Shown here: positions 24,847 through 64,000 of the stretch, in pieces
Numbering within the stretch: the stretch's first letter is position 1
How the letters are laid out: each line of letters starts with the position of its first letter
Source: Dehalococcoidia bacterium
Lineage (GTDB): Bacteria; Chloroflexota; Dehalococcoidia; Lucifugimonadales; JAGWBF01
Direction of reading: 5' to 3'
NCBI GenBank assembly: GCA_021295955.1
Contig: JAGWBJ010000005.1
Span: 106,597 to 170,596 of the forward strand
DNA length: 64,000 bases
Translations under genes and position numbers: made by a program
Notes under the pieces: generated by a model
What the model was told of the DNA's origin: nothing
Database searches by the model: none
The model's input: only the letters and a program-made list of their open reading frames with translations

Positions 24847-26163
24847 ATGACGAGTCAGGGGCAGGGAAAACGACCGAGGGTCTTCTATGGGTGGTGGCTG
24901 GTGGCCCTCACCGGCCTGATCATGTCCCTGGGCAGCGTCCCCCTGTTCCACGCCCTGGGCGTGTGGAGCGTGGCGTTGGAGCGCCAATTCCAATGGAGCC
25001 GCACCCAGCTATCCTTCGCCTTCGTGCTCAGCCGCGCCGAGGCGGGGTTCTTGGGCCCGGTGGAGGGGTACCTTAGCGACCGGCTCGGAACCCGGCGGAT
25101 GGTGCTGATCGGCCTCTCCATCCTGGGTCCGGGATACTTCCTCTTCGGACAGACCCACGCCCTGTGGATGTTCTACCTGACATACGTCATCATGTCCTTT
25201 GGAAACGGGCTCGGCAGCTGGATTCCCATGGTCACCGCGCTGAACAACTGGTTTCTGCGCAGGCGGTCCACCGCGGTGGCGTGGGCCAACGTGGGCAACC
25301 GCCTGGGAGCCCTGGTGCTGGTCCCCGCCATCGCGTGGGCGGTGGACCCCGACGCCGACCGGCTGGGCTGGCAGGCAACCGCGTCCATCCTGGGGGGCGT
25401 CGTCCTCGCCCTGGCCGTTCCCCTGTACCTGGTGATACGAAACCGGCCCGAGGAGTACGGCCAGTACCCCGACGGCGTCCCAGGCCCGGAGGCGCAGAGC
25501 CCATCCGGGCCCGCCGCAGCTCCATCCTCTCAGGCCCAGGACACCGGCCTGACCACCAGGGAGGCCCTGAGGACCTCCGCCTTCTGGCTGGTCAGCTTCG
25601 GCCACGCCTTCACCGTCGCCCTGCTGGTGACCCTGTCGTCTCACCTGGCCCTCATGCTCACCGACGAGGAGTTCGGTCTCTCCCTGCAGACCGCCGCCTG
25701 GGTCATAACCACCTACATAGCCACCTCCATGGTGTGCCATCCCATAGGCGGATACATAGGGGACCATCTACCCAAGAACTGGGCCATCTTCGTGTCCTCG
25801 GTAATCCAGGCCGCCTCGGTGTTCGCGATTACGTTAACCCACACCGCGCCCATGGCCTTCCTCTTCGCCGTAGTCTTTGGGATCGGGGACGGCGGCCGCA
25901 ATCCGTTGACCCTGGCCATCAGGGGGGACTACTTCGGGCGCAGGGCTTACGCGACCATCCTTGGCATGTCCCAGATTCCCATGAACATCACCATTCTGAT
26001 GGCGCCCCTCCTGGTGGGCGTGTACCGGGACGTATGGGGAAGCTACAACCCCCCGTTCCTCGCCGTTGCCGCCGTATCGGTCCTGGGCGGCCTCATGTTC
26101 CTCTTCTCCAAGAACCCCATGGCCCAGAGGTCCCGCGCGGGCGGCGCGGCCTCCGGCGACTAG
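24847..26163 (+). CDS. MFS transporter
   Basis: 438-residue inner-membrane major facilitator with about 12 hydrophobic segments in two halves joined by a hydrophilic, Pro/Ala/Ser-rich loop near residues 205-235. The N half has VFYGWWLVALTGLIMSLGSVP and the inter-helix GYLSDRLGTRRMV motif. The type is close to oxalate/formate-antiporter and monocarboxylate-like MFS proteins, but the substrate cannot be fixed. ATG 24847 is chosen from the membrane start; the frame is open far upstream only because of base composition. Confidence 0.88.
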   Translation: MTSQGQGKRPRVFYGWWLVALTGLIMSLGSVPLFHALGVWSVALERQFQWSRTQLSFAFVLSRAEAGFLGPVEGYLSDRLGTRRMVLIGLSILGPGYFLFGQTHALWMFYLTYVIMSFGNGLGSWIPMVTALNNWFLRRRSTAVAWANVGNRLGALVLVPAIAWAVDPDADRLGWQATASILGGVVLALAVPLYLVIRNRPEEYGQYPDGVPGPEAQSPSGPAAAPSSQAQDTGLTTREALRTSAFWLVSFGHAFTVALLVTLSSHLALMLTDEEFGLSLQTAAWVITTYIATSMVCHPIGGYIGDHLPKNWAIFVSSVIQAASVFAITLTHTAPMAFLFAVVFGIGDGGRNPLTLAIRGDYFGRRAYATILGMSQIPMNITILMAPLLVGVYRDVWGSYNPPFLAVAAVSVLGGLMFLFSKNPMAQRSRAGGAASGD

Positions 26164-33127: not shown

Positions 33128-33562
33128 AAACGCCTCAAGACCAAGGAGTTCCTGGTGGAAGTTGTGGAGTTGTTGCGCATGCAACTTCCGGCGTGGCTGC
33201 GCGACGTGAACGTCCTGGGGCCGGTGGGCTCTCTGATCAAGGTCCACTACGGCAACCCCAAGGTCCACTACGAGGTGTGGGTGCGCCCGAGGCACGGCAG
33301 CATAGAGGTGGGACTCCACTTCGAGGCAGAGTCCGGCCTCAACCGTCGCTACCTTTCCGAGCTGAGGGGACGGCACGCCCAGACGGTCGCTTCCCTGGGA
33401 CCGGAGGTGCAGCCCGAGGAGTGGGTCCGCTCCTGGACGAGGGTGCACCAGGCCATCCCCTTCTCGGAGCTGGACGAGGACACGCTGATGGTCGTATCGG
33501 GCCGGCTCTCCCAGATGGTGGCGCGCCTGGAGCCCGTGGTCAGGGAGATCTCGGGTCCGTGA
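33119..33562 (+). CDS. Hypothetical protein
   Basis: 147 residues, no recognised family. The N half is basic and helix-like (QGKRLKTKEFLVEVVELLRM), the middle has aromatic beta-rich stretches (LIKVHYGNPKVHYEVWVRP, IEVGLHFE) and the end is helical. No signal peptide or membrane segment. ATG 33119 sits in the second copy of a 15-base repeat; the frame is open upstream. It ends inside the 3' end of the opposing MFS gene (overlap 33540-33562). The pattern of conserved-looking aromatics suggests a real protein, but only coding shape supports it. Confidence 0.55.
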   Translation: MQGKRLKTKEFLVEVVELLRMQLPAWLRDVNVLGPVGSLIKVHYGNPKVHYEVWVRPRHGSIEVGLHFEAESGLNRRYLSELRGRHAQTVASLGPEVQPEEWVRSWTRVHQAIPFSELDEDTLMVVSGRLSQMVARLEPVVREISGP

Positions 33563-34796
33563 AGCGGATACGGTCCGCAGCTCCCTCACTCGGAGGTGCT
33601 CCTCGGACCCGGGGGTCTTTCAGGAAAGTCGACGCCGCCACGGCGAAGGCAGCGGCCCCCGTCGCCAGGACGAAGACCCAACGGACCTCCGTCGCGTCGG
33701 CTATGTGGCCCGCCAGCAGCGGCCCCAGGGCGTTCCCCAGCCCGGCCCCCATCCCCATGAGCCCGAAGGCCGCGGCGGAGAAGTTGGGCGGCACATAGTC
33801 TCCCGCCGAGGCGGCGCATATTATGTAAGCCGCCCTGAAGCTCAGCCCCACCAGCACCGCCGAAGCCACGAAGCCCGGTATCACCGGCGCGACCCAGAAC
33901 AGCAGGCTCCCCGCGCCCAGGGTGGCAAAGGAGAGGAAGAACCCGGCGCGCCGGCCCAACCTATCCGAGGCGGTCCCCCAGAAAACCCCGCTGACGATCC
34001 CCAGCGGCCCCAGAAACGTGAACAGCAGGCCGATGGTGGACAGGGAGACTTCCCGCTCCTCCAGGTAGAGTCCGAAGAAGGTCGTGTAGACCCCCGTCGT
34101 CCAGCCGGAACAGAAGGCCAGCAGGGCAATGAGCCACACCAGGGGCTCCCTATAGGCCTCCAGCGGCCAGGCGCCCCGGGCGGCCCTGAGGCCTCCCGGG
34201 TCTCGCGGCCGGTCCCGGAGGAACAGCAGGGACACCACGCCCACAACGGCCACGATGGCCGCCAGCGCGTACCAGGTGTGCCGCCATCCGTCCACGGGGT
34301 CCCGTCCCGTGAGCCACGGCACCAGGGTCCCTATGACCACGAAGCTGGCCCCCCCGCCTGCCGCGGCGATGCCCGCGGCCGTCCCCCGGTTCTGCGAGTC
34401 GAACCAGACCGAGAGGAGCCCCATCACCGGCGTCGTGCATCCCTGGATGGTGAAGCCCATGACAGCGCACATGGCCAGGGCGAAGAGATAGCTGAAGGAG
34501 GCGCCCAGGAACGCCATGGCGACGGCGTTGGCCAGGGCCGCCACCCCGATGATGATCCGGCTCCCGTACCGGGGCGCCAGCATCCCGAACACGAAGGCCG
34601 ACGCTATCCCCATCAGGGACGTAACGGTGATCAGCCCCCCGGCCTGGAAGTGGGACAGGCCGAGCCCTTCTTCCATGGAGGGGAGCACCAGGCCGTAGGC
34701 CACGCGGGATAGCTGGGTTACCAGGTTGACGACGACGGCTACCGCCAGGATGAGCCCGGCGTATCCCGCCAGCCAGGTGGGGGCTACCCGCCGCAT
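33540..34796 (-). CDS. MFS transporter
   Basis: 418-residue major facilitator with about 12 membrane segments. The first starts near APTWLAGYAGLILAVAVVV, and the loop motifs GMLAPRYGSRIII and DRLGRRAGFF mark the two halves. The type resembles CynX/NimT or oxalate/formate antiporter-like permeases; the substrate is unknown. ATG 34796 begins RRVAPTWLAG; the open frame further upstream runs into the tRNA-Gln gene and is not coding. The last 7 codons overlap the hypothetical gene on the other strand. Confidence 0.87.
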   Translation of the reverse strand: MRRVAPTWLAGYAGLILAVAVVVNLVTQLSRVAYGLVLPSMEEGLGLSHFQAGGLITVTSLMGIASAFVFGMLAPRYGSRIIIGVAALANAVAMAFLGASFSYLFALAMCAVMGFTIQGCTTPVMGLLSVWFDSQNRGTAAGIAAAGGGASFVVIGTLVPWLTGRDPVDGWRHTWYALAAIVAVVGVVSLLFLRDRPRDPGGLRAARGAWPLEAYREPLVWLIALLAFCSGWTTGVYTTFFGLYLEEREVSLSTIGLLFTFLGPLGIVSGVFWGTASDRLGRRAGFFLSFATLGAGSLLFWVAPVIPGFVASAVLVGLSFRAAYIICAASAGDYVPPNFSAAAFGLMGMGAGLGNALGPLLAGHIADATEVRWVFVLATGAAAFAVAASTFLKDPRVRGAPPSEGAADRIRFTDPRSP

Positions 34797-34841
34797 GGAC
34801 CGTAGGTAGTCATATACGATGGCCCGGGCCGCCCCTCGATC

Positions 34842-34870
34842 TTTCGCCCCCGGCAGCCGTATGCGATAAT
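34842..34870 (+). promoter_or_regulatory. Probable promoter for tRNA-Gln
   Basis: TTTCGC (34842-34847), 17-base spacer, GATAAT (34865-34870). The transcript would start near 34877, about 28 bases before the tRNA. The -35 is weak. Confidence 0.45.
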
Positions 34871-34880
34871 GGACTCCCCA

Positions 34881-34901
34881 GCGTTCGTCTCCGACGAACG
34901 C
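34881..34901 (+). repeat. Perfect hairpin in the tRNA-Gln leader
   Basis: GCGTTCGTC (34881-34889) and GACGAACGC (34893-34901) form a 9-base stem with a 3-base loop, ending 3 bases before the tRNA 5' end. It would fold in the precursor RNA just ahead of the RNase P cleavage site. Confidence 0.6.
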
Positions 34902-34904
34902 CGG

Positions 34905-34978
34905 TGCCCGGTGGTGTAGTGGTAGCACAGGGGACTTTGGCTCCCCTGACCCAGGTTCGAATCCTGGCCGGGCAGCCA
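34905..34978 (+). tRNA. tRNA-Gln (TTG)
   Basis: Complete cloverleaf: acceptor TGCCCGG/CCGGGCA, D stem GTGT/GCAC, anticodon stem GGGGA/TCCCC with loop CTTTGGC (anticodon TTG), T stem CCAGG/CCTGG with loop TTCGAAT, discriminator G and an encoded CCA (34976-34978). Confidence 0.95.
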
Positions 34979-58979: not shown

Positions 58980-60356
58980 CTACAGGGTGCTCTGCAGCTC
59001 CGCTATGGAGTCCCCTATGGCCTTGACCAGGAAGTCGATCTCGTCCCTGGTTACGCACAGGGGAGGCGCGACGGGAACGATGTCCCCGAACCGGCCCAGG
59101 AGTCCGCGCCGCGCCACTATGGGAGTAAGCTTCTCGGCCAGCTTGTCTTCCGGGGCGAACTTCTCCCTGGTGTCCCGGTTTTTGACCAGCTCCACGCCGC
59201 AGATCAAGCCCTTGCCCCCACGGACGTCGCCCACGATGGGGTACTCGTACAGGGTCTGGAGGCTCTCGAACAGGTAGTCCCCCATCCGGGCGGAGTTCTC
59301 CACCATCCCCTCGTTCTCCATGATCTCCAGGTTGGCCAGGCCCGCGGCGCAGCAGGCCGGGTTCCCTCCGAAGGTGATGAGGTGCCTGAAGGTGGTGTCG
59401 GCGTCGCCGGCGAAGGCGTCGGCCACCTTCTTGGTCGCGATGGTCCCGCCGATGGGCAGGTATCCGCTGGTCATCGCCTTGGCCACTGTGAATATGTCGG
59501 GGGTGACGTCCCAGTGCTCGGTGGCGAACATCTTACCGGTGCGCCCGAACCCGGTGATCACCTCGTCGCATATCATCAGCACGCCGTGTTTGTCGCAAAT
59601 CTCCCGGATGGTCGGCCAGTACTCGGGGTGGGGCACGTGGATGCCCGCCGCTGCCGAGATGGGCTCCCCGATGAAAGCCGCCACGGAGGCCGGGCCCTCG
59701 TGCTCTATGGCGCGGCCCACGTCCTGGGCGCACTCCAGGTTGCAGCCGCCCCTGTCGCGACAGAAGGTGCAACGGTACTCGTTGGGCTGGGCCACGTGGA
59801 TGTTCCCCGGCACCAGGGGGCCGAAGGAGTTGCCCGGAGGGGGAGACCCGCCCCCGCCAAGGCTGATGCAGCCGTGGGTCGCCCCATGATAGGAACCCCT
59901 CCTGCTGATCACCTTCCAGCGCCCCGGCTCACCCCTGTTGCTGTGGTACTGCTTGGCCATCTTCAACGCGGTCTCCACCGCCTCGGAGCCGCCGCTCACG
60001 AAGAAGACCCGGGACTCCTTGTCGGGGGCCAGGCTGGCCACCTTGGCCGCCAGATTGACGGTGGCGGGGCTGACGGTGCCCCCGGGCGTGTAGCTGACGT
60101 CCAGCATCTGCCGGTAAACGGCGTCGGCTATCTCCCGGCGGCCGTGGCCGATGTTCTTCAGCCACATGCCGGCCAGGGTATCGAACCAGCGCTCCCCCTC
60201 CGCGTCCACTATCCACGAGCCCTCGGCGCTGGCGACCAGTCTGATGCCCATCTCCCCGAACATGTCGCCGACCTGCCGGGCGTGGGGCCAGAAATGGGCC
60301 GACGCCAGCCCGTGAAGCTCCTCTATCTCATCGCCCCGTAGCTTGCTCTCTACCAT
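58980..60356 (-). CDS. Class III aminotransferase
   Basis: 458-residue PLP enzyme of the omega-aminotransferase group: SWIVDAEGERWFDTLAGMW, VFFVSGGSEAVETALKMAKQ, RRGSYHGATHGCISL, the ICDEVITGFGRTG motif with PLP Asp and the Lys in FTVAKAMTSGYLPIGG. A Cys-containing insert YRCTFCRDRGGCNLECA lies near residue 205, seen in some members. Candidate substrates are taurine, beta-alanine, putrescine or other omega-amines. ATG 60356 has GGGAGG upstream. It follows the por operon after a strong hairpin. Confidence 0.88.
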   Translation of the reverse strand: MVESKLRGDEIEELHGLASAHFWPHARQVGDMFGEMGIRLVASAEGSWIVDAEGERWFDTLAGMWLKNIGHGRREIADAVYRQMLDVSYTPGGTVSPATVNLAAKVASLAPDKESRVFFVSGGSEAVETALKMAKQYHSNRGEPGRWKVISRRGSYHGATHGCISLGGGGSPPPGNSFGPLVPGNIHVAQPNEYRCTFCRDRGGCNLECAQDVGRAIEHEGPASVAAFIGEPISAAAGIHVPHPEYWPTIREICDKHGVLMICDEVITGFGRTGKMFATEHWDVTPDIFTVAKAMTSGYLPIGGTIATKKVADAFAGDADTTFRHLITFGGNPACCAAGLANLEIMENEGMVENSARMGDYLFESLQTLYEYPIVGDVRGGKGLICGVELVKNRDTREKFAPEDKLAEKLTPIVARRGLLGRFGDIVPVAPPLCVTRDEIDFLVKAIGDSIAELQSTL

Positions 60357-60474: not shown

Positions 60475-60506
60475 CCGACCTTCCCCCTGGAGAGGGGGAA
60501 GGTCGG
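60475..60506. repeat. Perfect 14-base stem hairpin between operons
   Basis: CCGACCTTCCCCCT (60475-60488), loop GGAG, AGGGGGAAGGTCGG (60493-60506). It lies between the end of the oxidoreductase beta gene and the class III aminotransferase, both leftward. There is no T-run on either side, so it may be a factor-dependent stop, an RNA stabiliser or a repeat element. Confidence 0.75.
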
Positions 60507-60532: not shown

Positions 60533-61522
60533 TCACTCCTCCTTGATGTTTATGGGGATGATCCCGGGGCCCCACCACCGCTCCCACATCTCGTCCACTT
60601 TGTCCTGGACGTACTTGGTGTCCTCAGGGGTGAAGTGGGCGAAGCGGCCCTGGCGGACCAGGTACTCCTCCACCGGCTTGCGCCGTCTCATGCCCTTGGC
60701 GATGGCCTTGGAGGGGCCGTTGAGGATCAGCTCCCCGTCGATGATCTCGTACAGGACCCACAGGCCCGTCTCGATGGACAGCATCCCCAGCTCGTGGGAG
60801 AACTTGGGATCGTAGTCCCAACCCTTGGGACACGGATCGATGCTGTGGATGAAGGTGGGGCCGCCGATGGTCAGGGACCGCCGCACCTTGTTGGTCATGT
60901 CCAGGCCGTAGGAGCCGCAGGCCGTGGCCAGGTAGCGGCACTCGGGGTGTCCCGCCGCCAGCATGGGCACCATGTTCTTCTTCCACCGGGTGTTCATGAT
61001 GCGCTTCACCTTGCCCGGAGGGCTGAAGGTGGAGTTTGCCCCCCATGGGGAGCCGCCCGAGACCTGGATGTCCGTGTTGGCGTACGACTCGTTGTCGTAC
61101 AGGAGCACCAGGTGGTTGTACTCCGGGTGGGTCAGGGAGGCGGAGATGGCCGACAGGCCCATGTCCATCCCGCCGCCGTCGCCGCAGAAGGCGATGACGT
61201 TGATGGGCTCGTCCTTCATCTTGCCCTTGCGCATCAGCGCCTTCAATCCGGCGGCGGTTCCCGTAGCCGCCGAGCCCGAGGAGCCGAGCTGGGTGTGCAT
61301 CCACGGCACGACCCATGGCGTCGTGTAGTACGTGGTGTTGGCCACGTACATGCAGCCGGTGCTGCCCACCACGATGGTCCTGTCTCCCGCGGCCTTGACC
61401 ATCAGCCGCATCACCAGCGCCGACTCGCACCCCTGGCACGTCCGGTGGCCGGACGTGAACATCTCCTCGACGGGTATGTTCTTGACTCCCTTTACCACTG
61501 GCAGGTCCACCATCTGAGTCAT
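60533..61522 (-). CDS. porB: 2-oxoacid:ferredoxin oxidoreductase beta subunit
   Basis: 329-residue TPP-binding subunit. Cys ligands for a 4Fe-4S cluster are in HRTCQGCESA and probably STGCMY and IDPCPKGW, and the TPP/Mg motif is FCGDGGGMDMGL with LLYDNESYANT. It works with the alpha and gamma-delta subunits to cleave a 2-oxoacid, passing electrons to ferredoxin. It is the last gene of the operon, two bases after porA. The substrate inference rests on porA. ATG 61522 with AGGAGG upstream. Confidence 0.9.
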   Translation of the reverse strand: MTQMVDLPVVKGVKNIPVEEMFTSGHRTCQGCESALVMRLMVKAAGDRTIVVGSTGCMYVANTTYYTTPWVVPWMHTQLGSSGSAATGTAAGLKALMRKGKMKDEPINVIAFCGDGGGMDMGLSAISASLTHPEYNHLVLLYDNESYANTDIQVSGGSPWGANSTFSPPGKVKRIMNTRWKKNMVPMLAAGHPECRYLATACGSYGLDMTNKVRRSLTIGGPTFIHSIDPCPKGWDYDPKFSHELGMLSIETGLWVLYEIIDGELILNGPSKAIAKGMRRRKPVEEYLVRQGRFAHFTPEDTKYVQDKVDEMWERWWGPGIIPINIKEE

Positions 61523-61524
61523 CG

Positions 61525-62736
61525 CTACCTCCTTACGCCGATCCAGTGATTCTCCGCCTCGACCTTGCCCGTGTCCAGGCCGTCCCTGAGTATCTGCATC
61601 ATCAACGTCACGTCGTTTACCCTGACCTCCCGGCCGCCCAGTCCCGCGATGAAGCTGAGGACCAGTGGGCGCTTCTCCAGCGGGTACAGCGCCGACCTCA
61701 CCTCCTGGAACACGGTGCCGCCATTGGAGGGGGCGCCCAGGGAGTAGTCCCTGTCTATAACCCCGACAGCCTTGAACCGGGAGAGGCACTGCCTGATCTC
61801 CTCGGTGGCGAAGGGCCGGAACCACTTGATGCGCACGAACCCGACCTTGACCCCCTGCTCACGCATCCTCCGAACGGCTACGCGGACGGGCATCGCCAGG
61901 GTCCCCATGCCCACGAACACCACCTCGGCGTCATCGGTCATGTACTCCTCGTAGAAAGGACTGGGGTCCCCCCTGCCGAAGATGGACTTGAACTCCTCGT
62001 GGACCTCCTCTATCACTCCCTTGGAGCGGCGCATCGCCTCGTCCGTCTGCTTCCGGAGCTCCATCAGCCAGTCCTCGTTGACCTGGGGGGCGATGGTGAT
62101 GGGGTTGTCCGGGTGAAGCTGGAGCTCAGCCCGGTCATACTGGGGCAGGAACTTGTCCACCAACGCCTGCTCGGGCACTCGCACCAACGCCTGGGAGTGG
62201 GTGAGGAAGGAGCCGTCGGTGCTGATGGCGCAGGGCAGGAACACTCGCCGGTCCTCGGCAATCCTCCAGGCCATCAGGGCCGTGTCGAAGGCCTCCTGCG
62301 CCGTCGCCACCCAGTTGAGCATCCAGCCCAGATCCCGGACGGCCAGGGCGTCGTTGTGCTCCACGCCGAAGGCGCCCGGATCGTCCAGGGCCCTGTTGCC
62401 CACCATGGCCACCACCGGCAGCCGCAGCCCGGCGGTCACCGTTATCGCCTCGAAGGCGTAGAACCACCCCACGCCGCTGGAGCCGCAGAAGACCCGGGCC
62501 CCCACAGAGCTGGCGTGCTTCACGATCTCGAACTGGGAGTGCTCGCTCTCCGCGACGATGAACTCGCAGTCCAGCTCCCCGTCGGCCACGAGCTTGGACA
62601 CGTACTGCATCACCGTGTCGTAGGGACGGATGGGGTAGGCGGTGATGACGTCAACGTCGGCCATCGCACAGGCGATGGCGATGGCCTCGCTACCGCTTAT
62701 CAGCTCCTCTCGCTCTACGGTCTGTGCGGTTGCCAT
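61525..62736 (-). CDS. porA: 2-oxoacid:ferredoxin oxidoreductase alpha subunit, oxalate-oxidoreductase-like
   Basis: 403 residues: the pyrimidine-binding domain (SGSEAIAIACAMADVDVITAYPIRPYDT trimmed) and domain II. Pyruvate enzymes have YPITP in the active site; here the motif is YPIRP (residues 34-38, Arg 37). As I recall, oxalate oxidoreductase of Moorella has exactly YPIRP, with Arg31 and Arg109 contacting oxalate; here Arg 37 and Arg 115 (in VGNRALDDP) are the same 78 residues apart. ATG 62736 shares one base with the stop of the upstream gene (TAATG). Other dicarboxylic 2-oxoacid-like substrates remain possible. Confidence 0.88.
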   Translation of the reverse strand: MATAQTVEREELISGSEAIAIACAMADVDVITAYPIRPYDTVMQYVSKLVADGELDCEFIVAESEHSQFEIVKHASSVGARVFCGSSGVGWFYAFEAITVTAGLRLPVVAMVGNRALDDPGAFGVEHNDALAVRDLGWMLNWVATAQEAFDTALMAWRIAEDRRVFLPCAISTDGSFLTHSQALVRVPEQALVDKFLPQYDRAELQLHPDNPITIAPQVNEDWLMELRKQTDEAMRRSKGVIEEVHEEFKSIFGRGDPSPFYEEYMTDDAEVVFVGMGTLAMPVRVAVRRMREQGVKVGFVRIKWFRPFATEEIRQCLSRFKAVGVIDRDYSLGAPSNGGTVFQEVRSALYPLEKRPLVLSFIAGLGGREVRVNDVTLMMQILRDGLDTGKVEAENHWIGVRR

Positions 62737-63887
62737 TACACCTCCTCCATCTGGGCGATCTCTTCCTTGTACTGGCCGACGTGGTGGAAGCCGTGGGACC
62801 GGCTGTCCTGCTTCTGCTCCTGGACCAGGTCCTTCATCCACTTATTGTACTCGTCCTTGTCCTTCTGCCACGCCTCCCACTGGCTGGAGTTGTCCGTAAA
62901 GTTCTTCTCCCCCACCATGGTGACGCAGTCCGGGACGGGGCACACCGCCTCGCAGACCCCGCAGCCGCAGCAGGAGTCCATGTTGGCGTCGTAGAGGCCG
63001 TCGGGAGTGACGTCGAAGCAGGTGTCGGGGCACTGGAGCCAGCAGAGCGTGCACTTGATGCAGGTCTCGAAGTCGATGACCGGCCTCATGCTCCTGGTGC
63101 TGTACTTCTTGAAGTACGGGTTCCTCTTGGGCTCGTACCCCTCGCTGCCCTCCCGGAAGCCCGTCCCCTGCTCGATGCCCCGGATGACGATCCCCTCCTC
63201 CATGTTGGTCCACCCGGGCAGGTCGAAGCTGAAGGGGATCTCCGAGTTGCCTTCGCCGGGCTCCACGACCCTGGTATCCGTCCGGTCGTAGGCCTTGCGG
63301 GCGGAGTCGACCTTGACCTCATCCTTCCACTGCTCGAGGATGGCCTCGGCCATAGAGTCGATGCTCACCAGCTCCGGGCACACCTTGGGAAGGGCCCCCA
63401 GGATACGGGCGTCGGTGTGGTCGTCCTTGTACACCCACAGACCCGAGAAGCTGACGGTGCCCTTGACGACTCCCAGCCTGTAGGGGGCGTCCTTCTGGTG
63501 GGTGTCTCTGACCAGGTTGTCGGGCCCCTGCATAGAGGTGACCAGGACCGTGCCGTTGGTCCTGGTAAGGGCGTTGATGGGCTGGAGTCCGTACCAGCCC
63601 CACGACTCGACCCCCTTGCACAGGGTGTCGTCCACCACGACCGTAACGTCCACGTCCCCGGCCTCGTACATGGCCAGGTTCTCCTCCAGCTCCTCCTGGT
63701 TGTCGGCCACCACGGCGAACCGCTTGGCCGGGATCCCGTTTCGCTCCGGGGAGTCGCCGTAGCGCCCGAACGCAAGGCCGACCTTGCCCTCCCTGCGGGC
63801 GGCAAACACGATACCCCTGGTTATGTTGGTGGCCAGGGTCTTCTGGAAGATGCCCCGGTAGACCACCTCCACAGCCACCTTGGTCAT
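62736..63887 (-). CDS. 2-oxoacid:ferredoxin oxidoreductase gamma-delta fusion
   Basis: 383 residues. Residues 1 to about 180 are the gamma domain (VEVVYRGIFQKTLATNITRG, ENLAMYEAGDVDVTVVVDD). A linker leads to a delta-type ferredoxin domain with two 4Fe-4S motifs: Cys 276, 279, 282, 286 (CIKCTLCWLQCP) and Cys 306, 309, 312, 316 (CCGCGVCEAVCP). A gamma-delta fusion ahead of separate alpha and beta genes matches the subunit layout I recall for oxalate oxidoreductase. The C-terminal 60 residues are charged. First gene of the leftward operon; the 113 bases upstream to the window end show GGAGG but no clear promoter. Confidence 0.9.
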   Translation of the reverse strand: MTKVAVEVVYRGIFQKTLATNITRGIVFAARREGKVGLAFGRYGDSPERNGIPAKRFAVVADNQEELEENLAMYEAGDVDVTVVVDDTLCKGVESWGWYGLQPINALTRTNGTVLVTSMQGPDNLVRDTHQKDAPYRLGVVKGTVSFSGLWVYKDDHTDARILGALPKVCPELVSIDSMAEAILEQWKDEVKVDSARKAYDRTDTRVVEPGEGNSEIPFSFDLPGWTNMEEGIVIRGIEQGTGFREGSEGYEPKRNPYFKKYSTRSMRPVIDFETCIKCTLCWLQCPDTCFDVTPDGLYDANMDSCCGCGVCEAVCPVPDCVTMVGEKNFTDNSSQWEAWQKDKDEYNKWMKDLVQEQKQDSRSHGFHHVGQYKEEIAQMEEV

Positions 63888-64000
63888 GCCCTCACCTCCT
63901 TGATGCTCTCCTTATGTCTACTGCACATTGCTACGCCCCTAGCGTGACCTCAGCCTGCCGCTGCTGAACGCTCGCGGGCTCCACGTCCGAAAGATGGTGC

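Follow-up and report, generated by a model that had tools for sequence, protein, structure and literature searches.

Oxalate:ferredoxin oxidoreductase (OOR) has, to our knowledge, been characterised in a single anaerobic acetogen, and the enzyme is usually discussed along with the Wood-Ljungdahl pathway. For the Moorella OOR, Arg31 and Asp116 were named as important for a bait-and-switch mechanism (PMC5020499). A global survey of oxalotrophy covered oxc, frc, oxlT, and oxdC, with the word "oxidoreductase" absent (PMC10192776), and a study of oxalate in the gut deliberately omitted OOR (PMC8062136). Here, we compared these systems with a locus in a 64,000-nucleotide stretch of DNA from a Dehalococcoidia bacterium (hereafter, the window). 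Judging from sequence comparisons, this locus likely encodes an oxalate:ferredoxin oxidoreductase from a second subfamily that resembles OOR and that oxalotrophy surveys based on oxc and frc would overlook.

The three genes of the complex span 60533–63887 on the minus strand and are transcribed in the order gamma-delta, alpha, beta, preceded by a FadR/GntR-family regulator (LldR/PdhR-like). Only the 3′ end of the regulator gene lies in the window (63931–64000, minus strand), directly upstream of gamma-delta; the full gene (C22:170527–171402; L006:6528–7403) extends past it. The gamma-delta fusion (62736–63887, minus strand; 383 aa) combines an N-terminal OFOR gamma domain with a C-terminal 2x[4Fe-4S] ferredoxin domain, contains the Cys motifs CIKCTLCWLQC and CCGCGVCEAVC, and has a ribosome-binding site, AAGGAGGTGAGGGC, ahead of its ATG. 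It overlaps by one base with the gene for the alpha subunit (61525–62736, minus strand; 403 aa), which harbors YPIRP (with Arg37), Glu65, Arg115, and a switch loop, RALDDPGAFGVEH, holding Asp118, Asp119, and Ala122. Two bases past the alpha stop begins the beta gene (60533–61522, minus strand), encoding the TPP motif GDGGGMD...DNES and four cysteines that ligate the proximal [4Fe-4S] cluster. The earlier note on this DNA had described a gamma-delta fusion ahead of alpha and beta, and we confirm this arrangement, with beta lying outside the interval (61525–63887) that the note covered.

Downstream of beta, on the same strand, lies a gene for a class III aminotransferase (58980–60356, minus strand), a position that would suit a role in amino-acid catabolism, with the complex oxidising the 2-oxoacid produced by the aminotransferase. 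We consider this very improbable: the genes are separated by a 176-base gap containing a perfect hairpin, CTTCCCCCTCTCCAGGGGGAAG (60480–60501, minus strand; no match expected by chance), which is a possible operon end or attenuation point, and no related locus has this gene beside the operon. The aminotransferase is therefore probably outside the system, and we rejected it as a functional partner.

Searches of the PDB ranked the Moorella OOR structure 5C4I above PFOR for each subunit: it was the best match for alpha (E=7e-101, 44% identity), for beta (E=1.7e-82), and for the delta part of gamma-delta (E=7e-19), with a methanogen PFOR as the second match for alpha. An AF2 model of alpha (pLDDT 80.6) likewise had 5C4I as its best fold match (TM 0.87–0.88; next PFOR, 0.86), with very low confidence (pLDDT <50) at residues 116–127, the switch loop. 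Like the Moorella thermoacetica enzyme (PDB 5C4I/5EXD/5EXE), the complex is split into gamma-delta, alpha, and beta, has YPIRP and a second Arg, and carries the TPP motif and three [4Fe-4S] cluster motifs. The best NCBIfam models for all three subunits were the OOR equivalogs NF045790–NF045792; unlike the Moorella enzyme, however, all three fell short of the curated cut-offs (394 of 500, 338 of 590, and 82.6 of 230 bits). Alpha scored 277 bits against PadG of the NADH-dependent phenylglyoxylate dehydrogenase (NF045764), which belongs to the same OFOR branch by profile, far under its 394 bits for OOR. Phenylglyoxylate and VOR alphas were compared in this way, by profile score and outside the tree described below, and the scores place both further away.

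The alpha tree comprised 74 rows, with Moorella-type OORs and YPITP pyruvate enzymes (PorA/PFOR) as reference groups. In this tree, YPIRP alphas separated from the YPITP pyruvate enzymes at 100/100, and their superclade consisted of two sister clades, a Moorella clade of four rows (100/99) and a window clade of 58 rows (100/100). The three groups persisted, each at 100/99, when the motif and loop columns were removed. Archaeal-type PorABCD (PDB 9BT4) and fused PFORs (1B0P, 6CIN, 7PLM) share with the window complex the fold, TPP, the Fe-S wiring, and an equivalent of Arg109; unlike these YPITP enzymes, the window alpha has YPIRP and sits in a separate clade, and Chloroflexota PorA rows are ~35–41% identical to it. 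It thus has neither the motif of PorA nor a place inside the PorA clade. The earlier note had named a position within the pyruvate or 2-ketoisovalerate clades as evidence against its reading; in this comparison with PorA/PFOR, with motif columns in or out, alpha grouped with the Moorella OOR.

That note had also claimed two arginines in alpha 78 residues apart, and this is exactly what we find, with Arg37 in YPIRP (residues 34–38) and Arg115 in GNRAL. In the alignment with 5C4I, they match Arg31 and Arg109, the oxalate-binding pair of the Moorella OOR, without gaps, which supports an orientation of Arg37 into the TPP pocket. The PDB matches of all three subunits and the retention of YPIRP across the clade show that this agreement is not due to chance. 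Arginine occupied the Arg37 position in 99/99 window-type rows (a few of which may duplicate the sequence of the window itself) and 4/4 Moorella-type rows, as opposed to Thr in 11/11 PFOR rows; the full YPIRP was kept in nearly all window-clade rows. Arg115, invariant across the same 99 window-type rows, is not an OOR marker, since PFORs carry an equivalent Arg. Altogether, 14 alpha positions were (nearly) invariant across both OOR types and missing from nearly all PFOR rows, with R31, Y33, D112, F117, and W136 (Moorella numbering) among them. The cofactor ligands were equally well kept, comprising all four cluster cysteines of the Moorella beta subunit (Cys24, 27, 52, and 225) and two CxxCxxCxxxC motifs in delta in 74/74 relatives. 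A conventional ferredoxin-linked oxidoreductase of pyruvate or branched-chain 2-oxoacids, in which Thr had changed to Arg by chance, would share this fold and these cofactors, and a methanogen PFOR was indeed the second PDB match for alpha. Yet Arg in every row of both OOR types against Thr in every PFOR row, 13 further positions common to the two OOR types, and a tree that excludes PFOR render this explanation highly unlikely.

Between the two OOR types, three positions of the loop bearing Arg109 differed in a fixed manner from the Moorella type (4/4 rows) to the window type (99/99): Thr110 to Ala, Pro113 to Asp, and Asp116 to Ala. Moorella Asp116 thus corresponds to Ala122 in the window, while a new acid, Asp119, appears at the position of Pro113, three residues earlier. 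These differences are not a search artefact, because the peptide pattern of our genome scan was open to both residues at 116 and left out positions 110 and 113, and Chloroflexota were searched by profile, with no pattern. We hypothesize that Asp119 may replace Moorella Asp116 as the switch acid. As neither the score cut-offs nor Asp116 are matched, we assign the complex to a sister subfamily rather than to the curated OOR family; its members probably work like OOR, and they allow the bait-and-switch mechanism to be studied as a natural experiment.

The loss of Asp116 in 99/99 rows also means that the substrate could have shifted. The complex might be an OOR-branch oxidoreductase, with TPP and Fe-S clusters, whose main substrate is not oxalate but a different small acid that bears a polar or negative group adjacent to its 2-oxo carbon (glyoxylate, mesoxalate, or oxamate); the three replacements would then have retuned the site. 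The fixed loop differences and the subunit scores under the OOR cut-offs are in line with such a substrate; the invariance of Arg37 and Arg115 argues against it, and we regard it as unlikely. Gene neighbourhoods bear on both this alternative and our favoured assignment to oxalate.

From at least 258 related loci in a genome scan, we kept 80, all metagenome-assembled and 62–81% identical to the window. Their hosts were SAR202/Dehalococcoidia, Acidobacteriota, Rokuibacteriota, Armatimonadota, Proteobacteria, Myxococcota, and one Acetothermia bin; a plasmid search for cultured hosts returned no match at ≥60% identity. Among 400 Chloroflexota genomes searched by profile, two Moorella-type OORs passed the cut-off, and the window-type group lay mostly at 376–399 bits. 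Moorella-type alphas at two loci, L069 and L093, passed the OOR cut-off with 580 and 593 bits.

In 75/80 loci gamma-delta came before alpha, and 42/80 had a GntR gene just upstream of the operon. Unlike the Moorella OOR, window-type operons neighbour GntR, OxlT, TctCBA, or hydroxyacid oxidase genes. A family member of the oxalate:formate antiporter OxlT (TIGR04259), an MFS transporter, adjoined the operon in 18/80 loci, from Acidobacteriota, Myxococcota, and Acetobacteraceae; two that were scanned reached 481 and 549 bits (cut-off 335) and had solved OxlT (PDB 8HPJ/8HPK) as their closest structure. Asn268, Arg272, and Lys355, the oxalate-site residues of OxlT (PMC10070484), were kept in 15/15 neighbour copies spanning these regions; since Arg272 and Lys355 are conserved in the wider transporter family, the family score counts as much as the residues. 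Matches to TIGR04259 above the cut-off were present in 14/50 host genomes, and at five loci (L060, L065, L066, L067, and L070) the operon's neighbour was the only such match of its genome. Transporters of this type beside the operon in several phyla, with oxalate-binding residues, speak against another small acid as the substrate.

Other neighbours were less specific. TctCBA-type genes, found instead of OxlT at 14 loci (largely Rokuibacteriota), are not specific for oxalate and would be compatible with a different acid. So would an FMN hydroxyacid oxidase at 22 SAR202-type loci, a relative of lactate oxidase and glycolate oxidase/HAO1, as it would yield a 2-oxoacid such as glyoxylate; no OxlT was detected in the SAR202 relatives, though this oxidase adjoins the operon. 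A divergently encoded TPP enzyme resembling sulfoacetaldehyde acetyltransferase and acetolactate synthase was additionally observed upstream of the operon at L016:4934–6637 and at 12 other SAR202-type loci. Five proteobacterial loci carried an FprA-like reductase (mycobacterial FprA, E=1.6e-114), accompanied at four loci by an FdxA-like ferredoxin; these neighbours suggest an electron outlet for the complex. Finally, two loci (L069, whose alpha reached 580 bits, and L072) harbored a true, Moorella-type OOR in tandem, again at odds with a substrate other than oxalate. Taken together, OxlT neighbours, FdxA and FprA, the glycolate-oxidase-like enzyme, and the tandem OORs provide gene context that supports oxalate as the substrate.

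The tandem arrangement belongs to Candidatus Sulfotelmatobacter, in which the window-type operon is followed by the Moorella-type OOR (L069:8854–10086, L072:8016–9032). In L072, a GltD-like NAD(P)-binding module comes after the gamma subunit of the latter enzyme, suggestive of a potential NAD(P)-linked oxalate oxidation.

Heme-copper oxidase subunit I was encoded in 50/50 host genomes tested (in G447 by fragments alone), a figure that denotes co-occurrence among operon-bearing genomes and not enrichment. Acetyl-CoA synthase was found in 2/50 and oxalyl-CoA decarboxylase (oxc) above the cut-off in 1/50 of these genomes. Window-type hosts, which mostly encode a heme-copper oxidase and lack acetyl-CoA synthase, thus differ from the Moorella OOR system. 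Coupling to the Wood-Ljungdahl pathway as in Moorella was rejected, given that acetyl-CoA synthase was detected neither in the window's own genome nor in 48/50 relatives. That genome assembly (88% complete, 7% contaminated) also showed no COX1/heme-copper oxidase and no cytochrome bd; the difference from the 50/50 relatives may reflect either gaps in the assembly or another way of life. Our most useful new observation is that the subfamily is widespread among genomes encoding respiratory oxidases and often has an oxalate transporter gene as its neighbour.

With the subunits, cofactor ligands, two arginines, phylogeny, and gene context established, we infer the substrate, direction, CoA independence, and electron path of the complex as follows. 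Oxalate, which an OxlT-family transporter would import or, in SAR202, the glycolate-oxidase-like enzyme might produce inside the cell, would be clamped by Arg37 of YPIRP and Arg115, and TPP held between alpha and beta would attack one of its carboxylate carbons. A first CO2 would leave, and the TPP-bound one-carbon unit would be oxidised in two one-electron steps, the electrons passing to the [4Fe-4S] cluster of beta and then to the two delta clusters, before a second CO2 departs in a CoA-independent step. In the relatives, these low-potential electrons may reach ferredoxin and, via FprA, NADP, or enter other redox pools.

On a broader level, we see evenly balanced prospects for the following proposal: uncultured bacteria that respire oxygen, from many phyla and living in soil and ocean, rely on this second OOR class, in which the switch acid has shifted its place in the plug loop; with it they oxidise oxalate without passing through oxalyl-CoA and gain low-potential electrons and NADPH, forming an unrecognised environmental oxalate sink. 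The data suggest an overlooked route of oxalate destruction by common microbes. If true, oxalate degradation in soil and sea involves organisms that have so far gone unnoticed, since genomes with the sister subfamily (SAR202, Acidobacteriota, Rokuibacteriota, and others) are mostly without oxc above the cut-off. The earlier proposal that this lineage oxidises oxalate accordingly stands in part. The tree and the context—above all OxlT beside the operons of relatives—support it; the type is not that of Moorella, with scores under the cut-offs, Asp116 lost and another Asp gained, mostly respiratory hosts without acetyl-CoA synthase, and a cited MFS that is no OxlT.

This MFS, an oxalate/formate-type transporter said to lie in the window, did not hold up. 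The MFS gene at 33540–34928 (minus strand) scored 41.8 bits against a TIGR00890 cut-off of 374.85, and another near 24892–26163 scored 77.6 bits against the TIGR04259 cut-off of 335, and we rejected both as oxalate transporters on these scores. No OxlT was found above the cut-off in the window or in its 88% complete genome, which, like the lack of oxidases and acetyl-CoA synthase there, counts against the assignment to oxalate.

Past the window, within ~11 kb upstream of the operon (L006:8861–17174 of C22), the genome encodes a CaiB-family CoA-transferase and an MmgE/PrpD-like protein, together with an FMN hydroxyacid oxidase and a TPP enzyme that passes the PRK06154 cut-off. The latter two (~8–11 kb upstream) were considered as equivalents of the SAR202 neighbours and rejected; their low identity to these neighbours (42% for the oxidase and ~28% for the TPP enzyme) marks them as paralogues. 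A second PorA-like alpha is encoded at C12:2921–4105 (minus strand; loci L004/L009), in which FFPIGP replaces YPITP/YPIRP; ~30–36% identical to OOR/PFOR and placed on a very long branch, it would be part of a putative 2-oxoacid oxidoreductase. Lastly, a tRNA-Gln (TTG) gene at 34905–34978 (plus strand) overlaps the MFS reading frame (33540–34928) at its 5′ end, and the MFS gene therefore probably starts further in.
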